Virus record (IMG/VR): IMGVR_UViG_3300021091_000478
Span: 1 to 21,767 of that record
Length of the DNA stretch: 21,767 nucleotides
Direction: 5' to 3' (one strand)
From: a virus
The translations under genes were made by a program, and so were the position numbers. How positions within the stretch are numbered: position 1 is the first letter of the stretch; the number at the start of each line of letters is the position of its first letter. Positions 713-11,729 of the stretch are shown here, piece by piece. Under the pieces are notes generated by a model that saw only the letters and a list, made by a program, of their open reading frames with translations, was not told the DNA's origin and made no database searches.

Positions 713-1000
713 TTATCTTTCTGCTTGTTCGATTGTTTTTCCAAGTTCGATTGACCGATTCAATTCGTTCTTAAGAATGTTATTTTTGCGGAGCTTAATG
801 ATCTTAACCGCATCTTGAGTTGCCCAATCCCATCGGGAGCTATAGCAAGCACCTTCGGTCAGATTGATTTTGATGAAGTTGTCGTGATCCTTCACGAACA
901 CAACTCGATCAGTTTTCAGCCAAGGAGTAGCCTTGATGTCGTATTTGAGGAGATAGTATTCTCCCACTTCGGGTTTGATTGTCTTACTTGTTTCTTTCAT
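713..1000 (-). CDS. Hypothetical protein (95 aa), small beta-barrel-like N-terminus
   Basis: Residues about 10-50 alternate hydrophobic and polar residues (VGEYYLLKYDIKATPWL, RVVFVKDHDNFIKINL), as in a small SH3/KOW-like beta barrel. The C-terminal 35 residues are Lys-rich and probably helical. I do not recognise the family. The ATG lies exactly 6 bp from a TAGATT -10 box, so the transcript should begin at or next to the start codon and have no leader. It is the first gene of the operon ending near 301. Confidence that it is coding is good; the fold is a guess. Confidence 0.6.
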   Translation of the reverse strand: MKETSKTIKPEVGEYYLLKYDIKATPWLKTDRVVFVKDHDNFIKINLTEGACYSSRWDWATQDAVKIIKLRKNNILKNELNRSIELGKTIEQAER

Positions 1001-1006
1001 ACTCTT

Positions 1007-1034
1007 AATCTATCACACTTTCTGTTTTTGTCAA
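1007..1034 (-). promoter_or_regulatory. Early sigma70-type promoter A, predicted leaderless
   Basis: Minus strand: TTGACA (1034-1029), 16-bp spacer ending GTGTGA, then TAGATT (1012-1007), then 6 bp to the ATG at 1000. The TGA before TAGATT makes an extended -10. The same layout occurs at 1540, 2631, 2912 and 4208. Confidence 0.75.
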
Positions 1035-1039
1035 CTTTT

Positions 1040-1066
1040 ATTTTGCGTTGATTATCAACGACTTAG
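1040..1066. repeat. Solo palindromic repeat P, left half degenerate
   Basis: The centre CGTTGATTATCAACG (1046-1060) is a perfect palindrome, and the right half ATCAACGACTTAG matches the right half of the full 27-nt palindromes at 1671 and 3163. It lies 5 bp upstream of the -35 box of promoter A and overlaps the stop codon of the 49-aa gene. Confidence 0.7.
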
Positions 1067-1213: not shown

Positions 1214-1492
1214 TTATTTATTACCTTTCTCAATTAGTTTTGCATTGGTTAGGTTGATAGTTCCAACCTTTCCTTTATCCTCACCTTCGAGGAATGTTAC
1301 AACCGCATTTCCTGCGGTAGTTCTGTAAGAAACTTTTACCAAAGTTCCTTCGTGCAGGTAGATTTCACCAAAGTATGTTGGTGTATTCCTAGCATTAGTT
1401 ATGATTGCTTCTTCGGAAGCACTCATATTCTTTCTCATATTTTCACGCATCAGTTTTCGCTGATAGTTCCAATTTATCATCCTATGACTCAT
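1214..1492 (-). CDS. KOW/SH3-like small protein (92 aa), paralogue of the 2669-2869 gene
   Basis: The C-terminal half holds a compact beta-rich segment with the signature LEGEDKGKVGTINL. Nearly the same signature (LEGEDKGKWTTIYL) occurs in the product at 2669-2869, so the two are paralogues, and the pattern resembles small KOW or SH3-like barrels. The N-terminal 30 residues are basic and unique to this copy. The start codon ATG 1492 overlaps the TGA of a 14-codon leader ORF (1489-1533) as ATGA, with AAAGG about 12 nt upstream. Translation is therefore probably coupled to the leader. The 49-aa gene follows 1 nt after its stop. Confidence 0.65.
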   Translation of the reverse strand: MSHRMINWNYQRKLMRENMRKNMSASEEAIITNARNTPTYFGEIYLHEGTLVKVSYRTTAGNAVVTFLEGEDKGKVGTINLTNAKLIEKGNK

Positions 1493-1539: not shown

Positions 1540-1567
1540 AGTATATCACACGGCAGACGAAAGTCAA
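1540..1567 (-). promoter_or_regulatory. Early sigma70-type promoter B
   Basis: Minus strand: TTGACT (1567-1562), 16-bp spacer ending GTGTGA, TATACT (1545-1540), 6 bp, then the leader-peptide ATG at 1533. It has the same layout as the other early promoters. Confidence 0.75.
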
Positions 1568-1622: not shown

Positions 1623-1697
1623 GTAAGTCATTGATTATCAAACACTTACACGCGCGGGGAGGTCGCCTTTGTAAGTCGTTGATGATTAACAACTTAC
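1623..1697. repeat. Composite palindrome-core-palindrome element, copy 1 (27-21-27)
   Basis: The left palindrome, 1623-1649, is GTAAGTCATTGAT, T, ATCAAACACTTAC. A GC-rich 21-nt core follows at 1650-1670. The right palindrome, 1671-1697, is GTAAGTCGTTGAT, G, ATTAACAACTTAC. Several mismatches between the arms are of G-T type, so an RNA copy could still pair. The element lies between the DUF3846 gene stop and promoter B. It carries no T-run, so it is not a classical terminator. Confidence 0.8.
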
Positions 1698-1708
1698 AGA
1701 GGCAGAGT

Positions 1709-2083
1709 TCAGAATGGAATGAACTTTATTTCTTTGGATTCTTCCAGATATTTTTCAGAAGGTTTGAAAAAGATTATTTTCTCAAAAACTTTTTCCGTGG
1801 TGATTTCTTCGTGGAGAGAATCAAAGTCTCCATCTGGAGTTGCACCAACTAGCAAAGCCTTGCCAGCGTAAGGTTGCGAGTCAATTCCCACTTTGAAGTA
1901 TCTTTGAGATTCTGAATCTTTTAAGAGTCCCTCATCATCAAGAATCATATTAGCACCAAACGCTGAAGTGATTGTGATGAGGTCACAACCTAGCAAGCTG
2001 TAGATGGTTTGGAGTTTAGTGTCCACAAGCGTAACCTGTGAGACCGTCTCGGTGAATGGATCGATGAGGATTGCTCGGATCAT
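1709..2083 (-). CDS. DUF3846 family protein (124 aa)
   Basis: The opening MIRAILIDPFTETVSQV, the segment IYSLLGCDLIT, and DDEGLLKD followed by QRYF and GKALLVGATPDG are the hallmarks of DUF3846, a small family common on phages and plasmids with unknown function. The start is placed at ATG 2083 rather than at the upstream GTG 2092. The ATG overlaps the stop of the 37-aa gene as ATGA, and the family normally begins with this MIRA-like strand. It is the last gene of the operon from promoter C, and repeat copy 1 follows its stop. Confidence 0.75.
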   Translation of the reverse strand: MIRAILIDPFTETVSQVTLVDTKLQTIYSLLGCDLITITSAFGANMILDDEGLLKDSESQRYFKVGIDSQPYAGKALLVGATPDGDFDSLHEEITTEKVFEKIIFFKPSEKYLEESKEIKFIPF

Positions 2084-2193
2084 TTCGGCCACTCATTAAT
2101 GATGGATGATACATAAAAGAGCATCCCGAATCCATACAGGATAACTCCAATCATAAAGCAAGTTCCGAAGGTTTGTTCACTCATATTTCTCAT
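2080..2193 (-). CDS. Small single-pass membrane protein (37 aa)
   Basis: The frame runs from ATG 2193 (MRNMSEQTFGTCFMIGVILY) to a TGA at 2080 that overlaps the DUF3846 start. One hydrophobic segment at about residues 10-31 would span the membrane, with a short polar tail ending in NEWPK. A strong ribosome binding site (AAAGGAGA) lies about 11 nt upstream of ATG 2193. ATG 2184 is an alternative start. Size and overlaps favour a real gene in the operon. The family is unknown, and an inner-membrane role is inferred only from the hydrophobic segment. Confidence 0.6.
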   Translation of the reverse strand: MRNMSEQTFGTCFMIGVILYGFGMLFYVSSIINEWPK

Positions 2194-2197
2194 TGTT

Positions 2198-2395
2198 TTA
2201 TTTGTCTCCTTTGTAGATGACTGCCATTTGGTATTCTTGTCTCAACTCAATTGCTGGAGGCATATCAGCATATCGAGCTTGTGCCATTTGAGTTTTAGCA
2301 ACTTCACTATTTTGTTTGCCCATCATAGCAATGAGAGCCAGTCCGTAGACGATGAGTCCAAGAACAAAGACGAGGTGGAGGTTGTTTTCTTTCAT
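2198..2395 (-). CDS. Small membrane protein (65 aa)
   Basis: The product begins MKENNLHLVFVLGLIVYGLA. A single hydrophobic helix at about residues 7-25 is followed by a roughly 40-residue soluble tail. It has an excellent ribosome binding site, AAAGGAGA, about 11 nt before ATG 2395. The same ribosome binding site and spacing are reused for the next gene at 2193. It is the second gene from promoter C. No family is recognised. The N-in signal-anchor topology is a prediction from the sequence, not known. Confidence 0.6.
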   Translation of the reverse strand: MKENNLHLVFVLGLIVYGLALIAMMGKQNSEVAKTQMAQARYADMPPAIELRQEYQMAVIYKGDK

Positions 2396-2426
2396 TGTTT
2401 TAATTTATCTCCTTTTGTTGTTTTTG

Positions 2427-2624
2427 TCAAACACCAAATTTGTCTCGGTATTCCAAGTAGAGCTTCTCAAAAGATTCTCCACCTTGTTTCATTGCATCGC
2501 TGATATCAAACCATTGCATTTGACCTCTGCGATAGTAGCGGGAGTCATCACTCATCATATAAGTCCAATCGTGGTCTTTCAAGAGTTGTTCGAATTGTTC
2601 TAGGTTCATTGTTTTATCTTTCAT
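2427..2624 (-). CDS. Small conserved-looking protein (65 aa)
   Basis: The product has the pattern FEQLLKDHDWTYMMSDDSRY, then YRRGQMQ and FEKLYLEYRDKFGV. This resembles a small domain I have seen in phage and plasmid proteins, but I cannot name it. ATG 2624 sits 6 bp from the AAGCTTA-type -10 of promoter C, so the mRNA is predicted to be leaderless. A second in-frame ATG five codons later (MNLEQFEQ) is an alternative start. It is the first gene of the operon that continues through 2198-2395 and 2080-2193 to 1709-2083. Confidence 0.6.
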   Translation of the reverse strand: MKDKTMNLEQFEQLLKDHDWTYMMSDDSRYYRRGQMQWFDISDAMKQGGESFEKLYLEYRDKFGV

Positions 2625-2630
2625 ATGTTT

Positions 2631-2658
2631 AGCTTATCACACTTTCGTATTTTGTCAA
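2631..2658 (-). promoter_or_regulatory. Early sigma70-type promoter C, predicted leaderless
   Basis: Minus strand: TTGACA (2658-2653), 16-bp spacer ending GTGTGA, TAAGCT (2636-2631), 6 bp, then ATG 2624. Confidence 0.75.
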
Positions 2659-2668
2659 CTTTTATTTC

Positions 2669-2869
2669 TTATTGAGCATCAACGGGATACAAACCCTTGC
2701 GAAGATAAATGGTTGTCCATTTACCTTTATCCTCTCCTTCGAGGATTTCAGCAGTCGCACTCATTGTTTTCCAACCGATAGTGGAAGTGAAGATTTTCAC
2801 GAGTAGTTTCTCGTGACCATATCGGCAGATGTTTTTGTTTTCGTAGAGTTCAGGATTTATCGTTATCAT
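2669..2869 (-). CDS. KOW/SH3-like small protein (66 aa), paralogue of the 1214-1492 gene
   Basis: The core signature LEGEDKGKWTTIYL and the preceding YGHEKLLVKIF match the 92-aa product at 1214-1492 (LEGEDKGKVGTINL, YLHEGTLVKVS), so this is a diverged duplicate without the basic N-terminal extension. The 39-nt leader from promoter D is purine-rich and resembles the leader-peptide region upstream of the 92-aa gene, but has no ATG at the equivalent place. Its last codons (PVDAQ, stop) are read from a sequence matching the palindromic repeat, ATCAACGGGATAC on the plus strand. Function is unknown; binding of RNA or protein is only a fold-based guess. Confidence 0.6.
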   Translation of the reverse strand: MITINPELYENKNICRYGHEKLLVKIFTSTIGWKTMSATAEILEGEDKGKWTTIYLRKGLYPVDAQ

Positions 2870-2911
2870 TTTCTTTTTTCTTTCTTTGTTATCTTTTTTC
2901 TTTCTACATAT

Positions 2912-2939
2912 AATCTATCACATTTTTGGGTTTTTGCAA
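2912..2939 (-). promoter_or_regulatory. Early sigma70-type promoter D (with a leader)
   Basis: Minus strand: TTGCAA (2939-2934), 16-bp spacer ending ATGTGA, TAGATT (2917-2912). Unlike A, B, C and E there is no ATG 6 bp on. The predicted transcript carries a leader of about 36-39 nt of A and G before ATG 2869. Confidence 0.65.
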
Positions 2940-2954
2940 GATATTTTTTCATTT

Positions 2955-3029
2955 AAATTTCATTGATTGACAACGAGTTACACCGCAAGGGAGGCCGCCC
3001 GTTCAAGTCGTTGATACTCAACGAGATCG
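2955..3029. repeat. Composite palindrome-core-palindrome element, copy 2 (27-21-27)
   Basis: The left arm, 2955-2981, is degenerate in its outer half (AAATTTCATTGAT) and ends GACAACGAGTTAC. The core is 2982-3002 (GGGAGGCCGCC centre). The right arm, 3003-3029, is TCAAGTCGTTGAT, A, CTCAACGAGATCG. The outer ends of both arms have decayed, but the 27-21-27 spacing is kept. It lies 15 bp upstream of promoter D. Confidence 0.75.
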
Positions 3030-3114
3030 GTTTTCAGCGTTTAAGACTCAAAGTCTCTAAGATCGGATGTTGATCTTTTCGCTTCGTTCAGGTTTTGTTG
3101 CAAGATCACAGGCT

Positions 3115-3189
3115 GTAACTATATAACTAGCAAGGACTTACAAGAGCGGCTTCCCTGCGCGCGTAAGTCGTTGATACTTAAAGACTTAC
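3115..3189. repeat. Composite palindrome-core-palindrome element, copy 3 (27-21-27), core inverted
   Basis: The left arm is 3115-3141 (starts GTAACT, ends GGACTTAC). The core is 3142-3162. The right arm, 3163-3189, is GTAAGTCGTTGAT, A, CTTAAAGACTTAC. The core matches the other copies better when reverse-complemented: by eye 15 of 21 positions against copy 1, versus 8 of 21 in direct orientation. The element begins 4 nt after the SleB-like gene stop. Confidence 0.75.
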
Positions 3190-3193
3190 AGAA

Positions 3194-3571
3194 TCACAAA
3201 CGATAAAACTTGTGATTGCGAATTATCGCAACAGTCACTTCACCCTTCGACCATTTGGGCGATACTTGGAATGTGTGATAATGATTCGCACCATTCACAA
3301 CATCGGGCATTCGTTTATCTGCTACAAGTTTCGCAAGACGAATTGCGTTGTTTGCTTGCGGATTCTTTAGAAGTTCCTGCTTCTTTGCTTCGCTCACTCC
3401 ACCATTCCAGAAGCTGAATTGTTTTGGAGCGAGACACACCTGCGTTGCTGTTTGCTTACGTTCTATGGTGCGCGTTTGTATGACAGACGCAACGCCAGCC
3501 ATACCTTCAAAGCCTTCGCCTCTAGCTTCGCCTAGTATGGTTAAAGCTATAACAAGTATCTCAGCGGTCAT
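3194..3571 (-). CDS. SleB-type cell-wall hydrolase (endolysin), 125 aa
   Basis: The product matches the Hydrolase_2/SleB family that cuts the peptidoglycan glycan strand. ILGEARGE at residues 12-19 carries the expected catalytic Glu, followed by GMAGVASVIQTR, the QFSFWNG motif, and the closing GANHYHT, SPKWSKG and NHKFYR blocks. The length is that of the bare catalytic domain, without a binding domain. The first 14 residues are hydrophobic but belong to the domain, so export would need a holin or another route. ATG 3571 overlaps the TAA of the upstream gene (TAATG). It belongs to the early minus-strand cassette from promoter E and lies far from the holin-like gene at 21.3 kb. Confidence 0.85.
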   Translation of the reverse strand: MTAEILVIALTILGEARGEGFEGMAGVASVIQTRTIERKQTATQVCLAPKQFSFWNGGVSEAKKQELLKNPQANNAIRLAKLVADKRMPDVVNGANHYHTFQVSPKWSKGEVTVAIIRNHKFYRL

Positions 3572-4030: not shown

Positions 4031-4201
4031 TTATTTTACAACTTCGCCCATATACTTCTGGTGAGCTTCTTCCTTCTTGGCTTGAGCTTCCGCCACGATG
4101 TTGTCGAGGCGTTGAGCAGAGGCTTGGAAGCCAGCCGTGATAGCTTCAAGGCGTTTGATGGTTTCGTCTAGGTTGAACTTGATGTTTGCTTTAACTTTCA
4201 T
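4031..4201 (-). CDS. Small coiled-coil protein (56 aa)
   Basis: The frame runs from ATG 4201 to TAA at 4031. The product begins MKVKANIKFNLDETIKRLEA, has heptad-like spacing of hydrophobic residues over about residues 12-48, and is rich in Ala, Lys and Glu. It has no membrane segment and no recognised family. The ATG is exactly 6 bp from the TAGACT -10 box of promoter E, so a leaderless message is predicted. It is the first gene of the cassette with the 139-aa protein and the SleB hydrolase. Confidence 0.65.
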   Translation of the reverse strand: MKVKANIKFNLDETIKRLEAITAGFQASAQRLDNIVAEAQAKKEEAHQKYMGEVVK

Positions 4202-4207
4202 GCTTAT

Positions 4208-4235
4208 AGTCTATCACACCTATACGATTTGTCAA
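4208..4235 (-). promoter_or_regulatory. Early sigma70-type promoter E, predicted leaderless
   Basis: Minus strand: TTGACA (4235-4230), 16-bp spacer ending GTGTGA, TAGACT (4213-4208), 6 bp, then ATG 4201. Confidence 0.75.
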
Positions 4236-4261: not shown

Positions 4262-4288
4262 AAATTTCATTGATTATCAACGACTTAC
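4262..4288. repeat. Solo palindromic repeat P
   Basis: AAATTTCATTGAT, T, ATCAACGACTTAC. The left half is identical to the left half of copy 2 (2955-2967), and the right half is the consensus. No GC-rich core follows. It lies 26 bp upstream of promoter E and is the last copy before base composition changes. Confidence 0.7.
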
Positions 4289-9974: not shown

Positions 9975-10638
9975 ATTTGAAAATTGCATAGACCAAATTA
10001 ACACAGAGATTCTTAAAAGAAAAAATAAATGGAATCTTACTGCAATTGCTTGGATGGATTTTAATGACGTTTCTCAAATATTAAGATTTCATATATATAA
10101 AAAGTGGCACTTATATAATACAAGAAAACCTCTTGCGCCCTGGGTTAATACTATTATCAGCAATCAAATAAAAAATTTAATACGCAATAACTATAGTAAT
10201 TTTACTAGACCATGTTTAAAATGCGCCGCTTCTGATTCAGATAATGGATGCGCAATCTATGGAGCGCAATGTAATTCATGTCCTCTATATGCTAATTGGG
10301 AGAAAAATAAAAAAAGCGCGCATGATACAAAGCTAACTTTAAGTATAGAAAATCATGTTCAAGAAATAAATAGTATTCCTAATAATAATTTAAATATGGA
10401 AAAAAGCGCTAAAAATATTCATGCAAAAATGTCTAAAGTATTAAAACCAATTGAATGGAAAATATACACATATCTTTATATAGAAGGAAAAAATGAGGAG
10501 CAAGTGGCAAAATTAATGGGCTACAGAACTAGCGAAAAAAATAGAGTAGCAGGATATAAACAAATTAAAAATATTAAAAAATCTATTTTAGTAAAAGTAA
10601 AAAAACACTTATACAATGGAGACATAGATATCTCATGA
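9958..10638 (+). CDS. Phage RNA polymerase sigma factor, probably late (226 aa)
   Basis: Residues about 30-80 fit sigma70 region 2 (WMDFNDVSQILRFHIYKKWH, then PWVNTIISNQIKNLIRN). Residues about 160-215 fit a region 4 helix-turn-helix (IEWKIYTYLYIEGKNEEQVA, then LMGYR). Between them lies a Cys cluster (Cys86, 89, 98, 105, 108) that could bind zinc. Phage sigma factors of this size, such as T4 gp55, redirect host polymerase to late promoters with only a -10-like element. The start is ATG 9958, which fits the gene overlap; the upstream TTG is unlikely. It shares an ATGA overlap with the next gene. I infer that it reads the GTGTAAT sites found in this window. Confidence 0.7.
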   Translation: MAQKIKFENCIDQINTEILKRKNKWNLTAIAWMDFNDVSQILRFHIYKKWHLYNTRKPLAPWVNTIISNQIKNLIRNNYSNFTRPCLKCAASDSDNGCAIYGAQCNSCPLYANWEKNKKSAHDTKLTLSIENHVQEINSIPNNNLNMEKSAKNIHAKMSKVLKPIEWKIYTYLYIEGKNEEQVAKLMGYRTSEKNRVAGYKQIKNIKKSILVKVKKHLYNGDIDIS

Positions 10639-11729
10639 GTGAAGAAATTTCAATTTTGACAGAAGAACAACAGCTTAAGCTTTTGCAAGAATGGAATAAT
10701 AGACCAGATAATCCTCCTTCTCTAGCTGAGTTAGTTAAATTAGCTTTTAATAGAGATGATCTTGATGGCAGAAGCAAAGAAGGAAAAGCTGTAAAACAAT
10801 TTTTAGCTTCAAGACAAATCAAACCAAGAAAAAGCCATGAATATGAAGCTAAAGGTCTTATAGAATTGAATAATGAACAAAAAGAGTATGTAAGTAACAA
10901 TTGCCACACAATGACAGGATTAGAAATGGCAAAAGTACTTTTTAAAAACGAAAGCCTTACAAATTTATCTCAAGAGACAAGAAGCGTTTTAGAGCACATG
11001 AAGAATATACCAACTAATGTTAAATTTAATAATACCGAAAACGAAAACGCTTCAACAGATGAGTATAGACCGCCAAGAAGTGAAGAGAGAATGATTGCGA
11101 AGATAAATAAATATATTCTTGATGGCATAGACAAGAATAAAATGACGCATAAAATTAAAAAAGAAATAAATTCAATTATTGGTTATATGAATACTTTTAG
11201 ATTTTGTCATCAAATTAATCTTTATGACGATGAAAGAGATAGAGAATTATTTGAAAGCAGTTTTGTTCGATATACTTATGATAAGAGCGACCTTTCTCAA
11301 GAAGAAGTGGATCAGTACATTGTTCTTTCTACCGAAGTTGTCATTTCCTCTAATATACAACAAACCATCAATGTATTGCAAAATCAAATTGATATAGCTA
11401 TTCAAGAAGATGGAAAAATACCCATGGCTCTTGTTGAAGCTAGTAACACAGCAAGAAAAGAATACAATGATTGCGTTAATCGTCAACAAAAATTACTTAA
11501 CGATTTAAAAGTGAAAAGAAGCGAGAGATTAAGTAAACAAGTCAAAGAAACGGCTTCAATTATTAATCTTGTTCAAATGTGGAAAGAAGAAGAGAGTAGA
11601 CAAAAATTAATTAAAATGGCAGAGATACGAAAGCAAGTGATAGAAAAAGAGATAGATAGATTATCTACGATGGATGAAGTTAAATGTAAAATCTTAGGTA
11701 TTTCTAAAGACGAAATTTTAAATGGATGA
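10635..11729 (+). CDS. Terminase small subunit candidate with tandem helix-turn-helix-like repeats (364 aa)
   Basis: Two similar segments lie in the N-terminal third: one at about 28-63 (SLAELVKLAF, then GRSKEGKAVKQFLASRQI), the other at about 93-125 (LEMAKVLFKNESL, then SQETRSVLEHMKNI). Both fit a helix-turn-helix repeat with the pattern LxELxKLxF...S.E.R.V...L. The rest is a long helical, coiled-coil-rich body. I do not recognise the family by sequence. Position suggests a DNA-binding small terminase subunit or another packaging regulator: it overlaps the sigma gene and the ERCC4 nuclease gene by ATGA, and TerL follows. At 364 aa it is longer than typical small terminases. Confidence 0.5.
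   Translation: MSEEISILTEEQQLKLLQEWNNRPDNPPSLAELVKLAFNRDDLDGRSKEGKAVKQFLASRQIKPRKSHEYEAKGLIELNNEQKEYVSNNCHTMTGLEMAKVLFKNESLTNLSQETRSVLEHMKNIPTNVKFNNTENENASTDEYRPPRSEERMIAKINKYILDGIDKNKMTHKIKKEINSIIGYMNTFRFCHQINLYDDERDRELFESSFVRYTYDKSDLSQEEVDQYIVLSTEVVISSNIQQTINVLQNQIDIAIQEDGKIPMALVEASNTARKEYNDCVNRQQKLLNDLKVKRSERLSKQVKETASIINLVQMWKEEESRQKLIKMAEIRKQVIEKEIDRLSTMDEVKCKILGISKDEILNG

Follow-up and report, generated by a model that had tools for sequence, protein, structure and literature searches.

The composite palindromic elements described here mark transcription-unit boundaries in genomes of an uncultivated tailed-phage lineage. The best explanation we can offer, which we hold tentatively, is that they are protein-bound boundary elements with an insulator- or terminator-like action; we infer both the protein binding and the insulating or terminating role, the role from position only.

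Elements in the window

The window is the whole IMG/VR virus contig that was analyzed, a phage contig of 21,767 bases (21.8 kb). Small minus-strand genes fill its left 4.3 kb, and the remainder encodes PhoH, a T4-type terminase, and structural genes. A sequence-only reading of this DNA had described three copies of a 27-nt palindrome, a 21-nt GC-rich core, and a second 27-nt palindrome (1623-1697, 2955-3029, and 3115-3189) as well as solo palindromes at 1040-1066 and 4262-4288. All of these were present, and a third, decayed solo palindrome that had been missed was located at 2664-2690 (Table 1). The cores, claimed to be rich in GC, measured 71-76% GC versus 40% in the region. Mismatches in the window palindromes were counted against the consensus RTAASTCGTTGANNNTCAACGASTTAY. 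The half-site GTAAGTCGTTGAT was matched 17 times with up to 3 mismatches, compared with 5.6 ± 2.5 expected matches; none of 100 shuffles reached as many, and no palindrome pairs occurred in shuffled windows.

Element 1 is flanked by the 3' end of gene 1709-2092(-) on one side and by the promoter of gene 1214-1492(-) on the other. Element 2 has homologues at L035:5490 (aligned) and L088:578, and the doublet 2955/3115 recurs in L088 at 578/738, also with 21-nt cores. The solo at 1040-1066 is conserved, again unpaired, in L065 (11283) and L035 (6111), and that at 4262-4288 in L065 (8221), L035 (3079), and L045 (2982). The window promoters at 1007-1034 and 4208-4235 each come after a solo, and that at 1540-1567 comes after an element. 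Five promoter regions of the window are alike (994-1034, 1523-1551, 2618-2658, 2899-2939, and 4195-4235) and adjoin elements or solos; they combine a TTGACA-like box, 16-17 nt, and a TGTGATAGANT-like box and belong to minus-strand early genes. The PF07486 cell-wall hydrolase gene 3194-3571 is situated within the early block, an unusual location for a lysis gene.

Table 1. Coordinates of elements, promoters, and neighboring genes (window positions unless L288 is named)
Feature	Position	Strand	Remarks
Sigma70-like promoter of gene 713-1000(-)	1007-1034	-	TTGACA-16-TAGATT, 10/12; 5 nt from solo palindrome
Solo palindrome	1040-1066		5 mismatches; ATTTTGC replaces one half-site
Sigma70-like promoter of gene 1214-1492(-)	1540-1567	-	TTGACT-16-TATACT, 10/12; 55 nt from element 1
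Element 1, left 27-nt palindrome	1623-1649		GTAAGTCATTGATTATCAAACACTTAC; 3 mismatches vs family consensus
Element 1, core	1650-1670		21 nt, GC-rich; 71% GC
Element 1, right 27-nt palindrome	1671-1697		GTAAGTCGTTGATGATTAACAACTTAC; 2 mismatches
Early gene upstream of element 1, DUF3846	1709-2092	-	Pfam PF12957
Promoter-region repeat, copy of 994-1034 (family D3)	2618-2658	-	Adjoins decayed solo palindrome
Decayed solo palindrome	2664-2690		6 mismatches
Promoter-region repeat, copy of 994-1034 (family D3)	2899-2939	-	Adjoins element 2
Element 2, left palindrome	2955-2981		5 mismatches; AAATTTC replaces outer half
Element 2, core	2982-3002		21 nt, GC-rich; 76% GC
Element 2, right palindrome	3003-3029		5 mismatches
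Element 3, left palindrome, decayed	3115-3141		6 mismatches; homologous to L088:738
Element 3, core	3142-3162		21 nt, GC-rich; 71% GC; orientation opposite to cores 1 and 2
Element 3, right palindrome	3163-3189		2 mismatches
Cell-wall hydrolase/endolysin family gene	3194-3571	-	PF07486, phrog_938; ends 4 nt from element 3
Sigma70-like promoter of gene 4031-4201(-)	4208-4235	-	TTGACA-16-TAGACT, 10/12; 26 nt from solo palindrome
Solo palindrome	4262-4288		4 mismatches; AAATTTC replaces one half-site
Class B element in L288	284-345
Class B element in L288	773-834
Class B element in L288	1211-1272
Class B element in L288	1576-1627
Class B element in L288	3182-3243

Occurrence in a phage lineage

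A near-exact search with a single palindrome had matches in three viral contigs, all of which bear several pairs with starts 50 nt apart. With a pattern of the two inner arms and a free gap of 19-27 nt, 100 viral-contig stretches were matched, and every gap measured 21-25 nt. A similar pattern gave 17 matches with scattered gaps in 257 Gb of bacterial genomes; most are apparently chance matches, and one of them lies on L117, a contig of the phage lineage. A looser scan (gaps of 5-60 nt) showed peaks at 21 (39 elements), 23 (174), 24 (16), and 25 nt (19), against about 0-8 in the background. In total, about 250 elements were found on 73 viral contigs. Of the 47 contigs with at least two elements, 44 kept one core length, which was 21, 23 (the mode), 24, or 25 nt. 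As a control for selection, loci were retrieved independently of the element, using a conserved phage protein that has no relation to it (window 10635-11729). The core was 23 nt in all 24 pairs within the 21-25 range at these loci, and each of the four unselected loci that have 10 kb upstream bears 4-7 elements. The geometry is thus preserved in further copies, the check that the sequence-only reading had named. Of the claimed fixed 27-21-27 layout, the constancy of the core held within contigs, whereas its length of 21 nt is not general; the window has a sub-lineage version, and cores outside it are usually 23 nt long.

Most of the element contigs that were checked belong to a single uncultivated tailed-phage lineage. 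Among 21 long records, 17 carry the terminase of the window and 18 the marker protein, which is matched by >500 IMG/VR viral contigs. The terminases of the relatives are mostly just 38-42% identical to that of the window, and the nearest ones in INPHARED about 25%. The element was absent from the cultured phages in INPHARED, where one chance-like 21-nt match occurred in a crAss-like phage. The contig L117 resides in a Verrucomicrobiales MAG, which is a weak hint at the host of the lineage. Long genomes have one or two blocks of elements of roughly 5-12 kb each, where small early or accessory genes are found. The records are fragments, and comparisons among related contigs are not independent.

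Several variants were seen beside the standard layout. L010, L018, and L064 have extended elements in which the pair is flanked at 7-8 nt by extra outer palindromes (palindrome-7-palindrome-24-palindrome-8-palindrome). In L218, a member of the lineage, tandem repeats of TAGCAAA and GGTAATNATTAGCGTGG occupy positions 231-362 and 3275-3458 of the corresponding early region, and no elements of either sequence class (A or B, see below) were found. Dispersed intergenic repeats with phage-like palindromes were observed in the chromosomes of Verrucomicrobiales RYN_636 (L167-L174), where they are apparently MITEs, and of Microscillaceae Prado074 (L175-L185) and a Verrucomicrobiota genome (L194-L209). 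The chromosomal palindromes are single or paired with other spacer lengths.

Placement at gene junctions

Genes were predicted with a simple, home-made hexamer caller at several gene-score thresholds. No element lay within a predicted gene, which bears out the confinement of the copies to intergenic space. An element was present at 23 of 25 long convergent junctions, 178 of 234 long co-directional ones, and 8 of 18 long divergent ones, but at only 2 of 225 short co-directional junctions. Lower gene-score thresholds gave occupancies of about 90, 76-84, 44-64, and 1-2%, respectively, and at the strictest threshold 9 of 10 long divergent junctions were occupied. About one quarter of the long co-directional and about half of the long divergent junctions were without an element. 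Because the long junctions are occupied and the short co-directional ones are nearly empty, the elements mark transcription-unit boundaries; a bias toward the 3' ends of units is possible. Together with the sharp core-length peaks and the constancy within contigs, this placement supports the earlier argument that constant geometry implies function.

Elements follow each other at 0.3-1.5 kb at unit borders, and the sequence downstream of them is A-rich. Promoter-like sites were found after the element in 12.3%, compared with 2.1% in shuffled sequences and 1.3% upstream, at no fixed distance. Such a placement near promoters would also suit a regulator. Between the elements lie, among others, genes of the DUF932, GP88, SprT-like, and DUF3846 families, of an anti-restriction family, and for a PolyVal-type peptidase; such genes are typical of an early accessory set, possibly with a role in anti-defense.

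Mobility and recombination

The presence or absence of an element between homologous neighboring genes was concordant in 120 cases and discordant in 2; therefore, the elements do not hop. Flanking target duplications (≥4 nt) were found for only 1.6% of the elements, no Y1 transposase (RAYT, PF01797) was detected in 21 records, some of them fragmentary, and no empty sites with target duplications were seen in close relatives. The lack of both flanking duplications and independent insertion speaks against the small mobile unit that had been suggested. Selfish units of the MITE or REPIN type that tolerate intergenic insertion only would agree with dispersed, multicopy palindromic repeats and with the related palindromes in apparent chromosomal MITEs. 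Nevertheless, we regard this explanation as highly improbable in view of the 120:2 concordance, the rarity of duplications, and the missing transposase. Furthermore, the elements never occur in genes, keep their 0.3-1.5-kb spacing at unit borders, and are conserved across relatives as deep as the terminase identities indicate.

The order of units varies among relatives, with elements staying at the borders (for example, L102 versus L007). Adjacency was kept in 72% of cases within units versus 46% across elements, and some one-sided homologies end inside elements. These observations would be expected if the elements were gene-cassette recombination sites, integron-like or Xer-like, by which early units are shuffled. 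However, no tyrosine (PF00589) or serine recombinase scored above the cut-off in 21 records, an integron integrase was likewise absent, and an attC R-box pair (RYYYAAC...GTTRRRY) spanned the site in only 2.0% of the elements, which also lack covariation. Breakpoints fell across elements in 16-40% versus 20-49% at element-free gene junctions. With this control, the elements no longer looked like hot spots of recombination, as they had at first, and the earlier suggestion of a recombination site found no breakpoint excess in its favor. Cassette sites are therefore very unlikely.

Constraint on the half-sites

Covariation between the palindrome arms was absent (86.3% paired versus 87.1% in shuffled columns), and RNAalifold predicted no pairs and no consensus structure for the elements. 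The complementarity of the left and right palindromes, which would form a long hairpin, was below that of all 500 shuffles. Self-complementarity of the core exceeded shuffles in both sequence classes, a value perhaps inflated by relatedness, and single elements folded better as RNA than shuffles (z of -1.1 to -8.2). No U-tract follows the element; T5+ occurred within 20 nt after only 3.5% of the elements, by which an intrinsic terminator was ruled out. An Rfam scan of the window and eight relatives yielded no match to the element, and solely tRNAs, in the relatives. A structured RNA had been proposed with compensatory arm changes as its own criterion; such changes are absent, and the core signal is weak.

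In the half-site, A3 and T10 changed in 0% of cases and T2, A4, and A12 in 4-6%, compared with 26% in the flanks. The central 3 nt of the palindrome and position 5 are unconstrained; position 5 has C and G in about equal shares, with no dependence between the half-sites of a palindrome, and its C/G toggling outpaces the divergence of the flanks. Because position 5 toggles freely while A3 and T10 never change, without pairing covariation, the independent base-by-base constraint on the half-sites probably is the signature of protein contacts. Among the four roles suggested earlier, the protein-binding site fits best, with half-sites constrained in the absence of covariation, although as judged by sequence it is a candidate site.

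Two further observations concern the half-sites. At position 5 of class A, 199 of 226 changes were between C and G, and the inner half-sites of one element were identical in just 30%, a pattern that would arise if the two palindromes avoided being fully complementary. An apparently better conservation of inner than outer arms was due to selection bias (0.074 versus 0.106 in selected and 0.097 versus 0.101 in unselected loci).

An RNA-level element at 3' ends was weighed against the protein-binding site. Here, the transcribed palindromes and GC core would form hairpins that end, process, or stabilize early mRNAs. The bias toward 3' ends, strongest at convergent junctions, and the position of class B elements 5-12 nt past many stop codons agree with this reading, and the single-element folds with z down to -8 and the core covariation in both classes point the same way. 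However, neither class shows arm covariation, the long hairpin is under-paired, and consensus pairs, a U-tract, and an Rfam match are all missing, so that an RNA role is rather unlikely.

Resemblance to IHF sites and a second sequence class

The IHF consensus is TAAnnnnTTGATW or WATCAANNNNTTR (PMC10380432; PMC5896051), and the class A half-site R-TAA-STCG-TTGA(T)(W) equals it in sequence and spacing. At least one strict match to WATCAANNNNTTR occurs in 78% of the elements, in class A only, and the strict motif is 86-fold denser inside elements (15.6/kb) than elsewhere in the same contigs (0.18/kb). Solos in the sub-lineage of the window resemble lambda H', including the A/T tract. The tract expected of IHF opposite an intact half-site was confined to this sub-lineage and failed as a general feature.

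The elements might accordingly be docking sites for host IHF or HU, in which each palindrome would comprise two overlapping, opposed IHF sites of a RIB/BIME-1-like element. The density of the consensus, the A/T tract of the window solos at the place where lambda H' has it, and the same palindrome in chromosomal repeats of two Verrucomicrobiota genomes and one Microscillaceae genome all favor this explanation. On the other side, T6 and C7 are conserved though free in IHF sites, the A/T tract is not general, and no IHF/HU gene scored above the cut-off in the 21 phage records, so that a host protein would be required. Moreover, class B elements take the same positions without an IHF consensus. 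We consider IHF docking unlikely.

Class B elements have two 19-nt palindromes, one on either side of a 13-14-nt GC core CCAGGnnnCCTGG, and their sequence is unrelated to class A. The palindromes read TACCTA...TAGGTA (CCTAGGTA...), around CCTAGG..CCTAGG. They were found in many copies per contig in L288 and L290-L297, one clade of the same lineage. An element was present at 5 of 5 convergent, 38 of 47 long co-directional, and 0 of 21 short co-directional junctions; as in class A, there was no arm covariation and the long hairpin was under-paired. The two classes are mutually exclusive within a contig. In a tree of the marker protein, class B was limited to a single group with 100/100 support, which includes one element-free locus, and class A lay on deeper branches. 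One clade has thus swapped the whole class A set for class B under the same placement rule. Because a universal host factor would not need such a switch, a lineage- or host-specific protein was ranked above IHF.

Discussion

In the proposed mechanism, the elements would be double-stranded DNA sites for a putative dimeric DNA-binding protein. Each 27-nt palindrome may offer two opposed half-sites of ~12 bp (RTAASTCGTTGA), and two palindromes ~48-52 bp apart from center to center flank a rigid GC-rich core. One element is retained at nearly every early transcription-unit boundary, where the bound nucleoprotein complex could act as a bidirectional insulator or a factor-dependent terminator at unit ends. 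This separation would allow many small, independently promoted early genes to be packed serially. The class switch may reflect an altered binding protein or host.

The closest known systems are the BIME/RIB repeats. According to PMC2817692, which cites Boccard and Prentki 1993, BIME-1 or RIB of E. coli is a pair of REP palindromes that enclose an IHF site and is located at the 3' ends of transcription units. The phage elements share the two palindromes around a spacer, the extragenic location at transcription-unit ends, the many copies, and, in class A, the IHF consensus. They differ in that they occur in phages and have no GTAG/CGTC tag, the palindromes themselves bear the IHF-like consensus, the GC-rich core has a fixed length, one element serves each unit boundary, and the whole set switches to a second class. 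REP and REPIN elements with RAYT transposases (PMC2817692, PMC3733652) likewise have paired palindromes and a conserved spacer length; however, the GTAG or CGTC tag of REP palindrome ends was found in 0 phage elements, which also have no Y1 transposase or covariation and show no trace of dispersal. Integron attC cassette arrays are known in some phages (PMC9892861), and there, too, small accessory genes are parted by repeated near-palindromic sites. In contrast to attC, the phage elements have no RYYYAAC/GTTRRRY boxes, integrase, or breakpoint excess and are constrained in sequence rather than in structure. Phage operators such as lambda OL/OR resemble the elements as dimer-type palindromic sites near early promoters, but the elements also occupy promoterless convergent junctions, have two sites around a GC core, and lie at variable distances from promoters. 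The elements are thus paired extragenic palindromes at transcription-unit ends, akin to BIME/RIB in layout and placement, that lack both the tag and transposase expected of REP/REPIN and the boxes and integrase expected of attC.

Literature searches yielded no description of the element, and we know of none for class A or class B. To our knowledge, few DNA elements separate neighboring transcription units in bacteria or phages. That a whole set was exchanged for one with the same layout but an unrelated sequence suggests that a factor acts on the elements in trans and that their boundary function is selectable. It is conceivable, although we regard it as doubtful, that the lineage evolved its own punctuation, in which a cognate DNA-binding protein encoded by the phage or taken from its host would be paired with one composite element per early unit, and the specificity of the protein and the whole set would shift jointly, as from A to B. 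If true, this would be a type of insulator/terminator system so far undescribed in bacteria or phages. The elements are also a handle for finding and classifying the uncultivated lineage, and they mark its early accessory, possibly anti-defense, genes.
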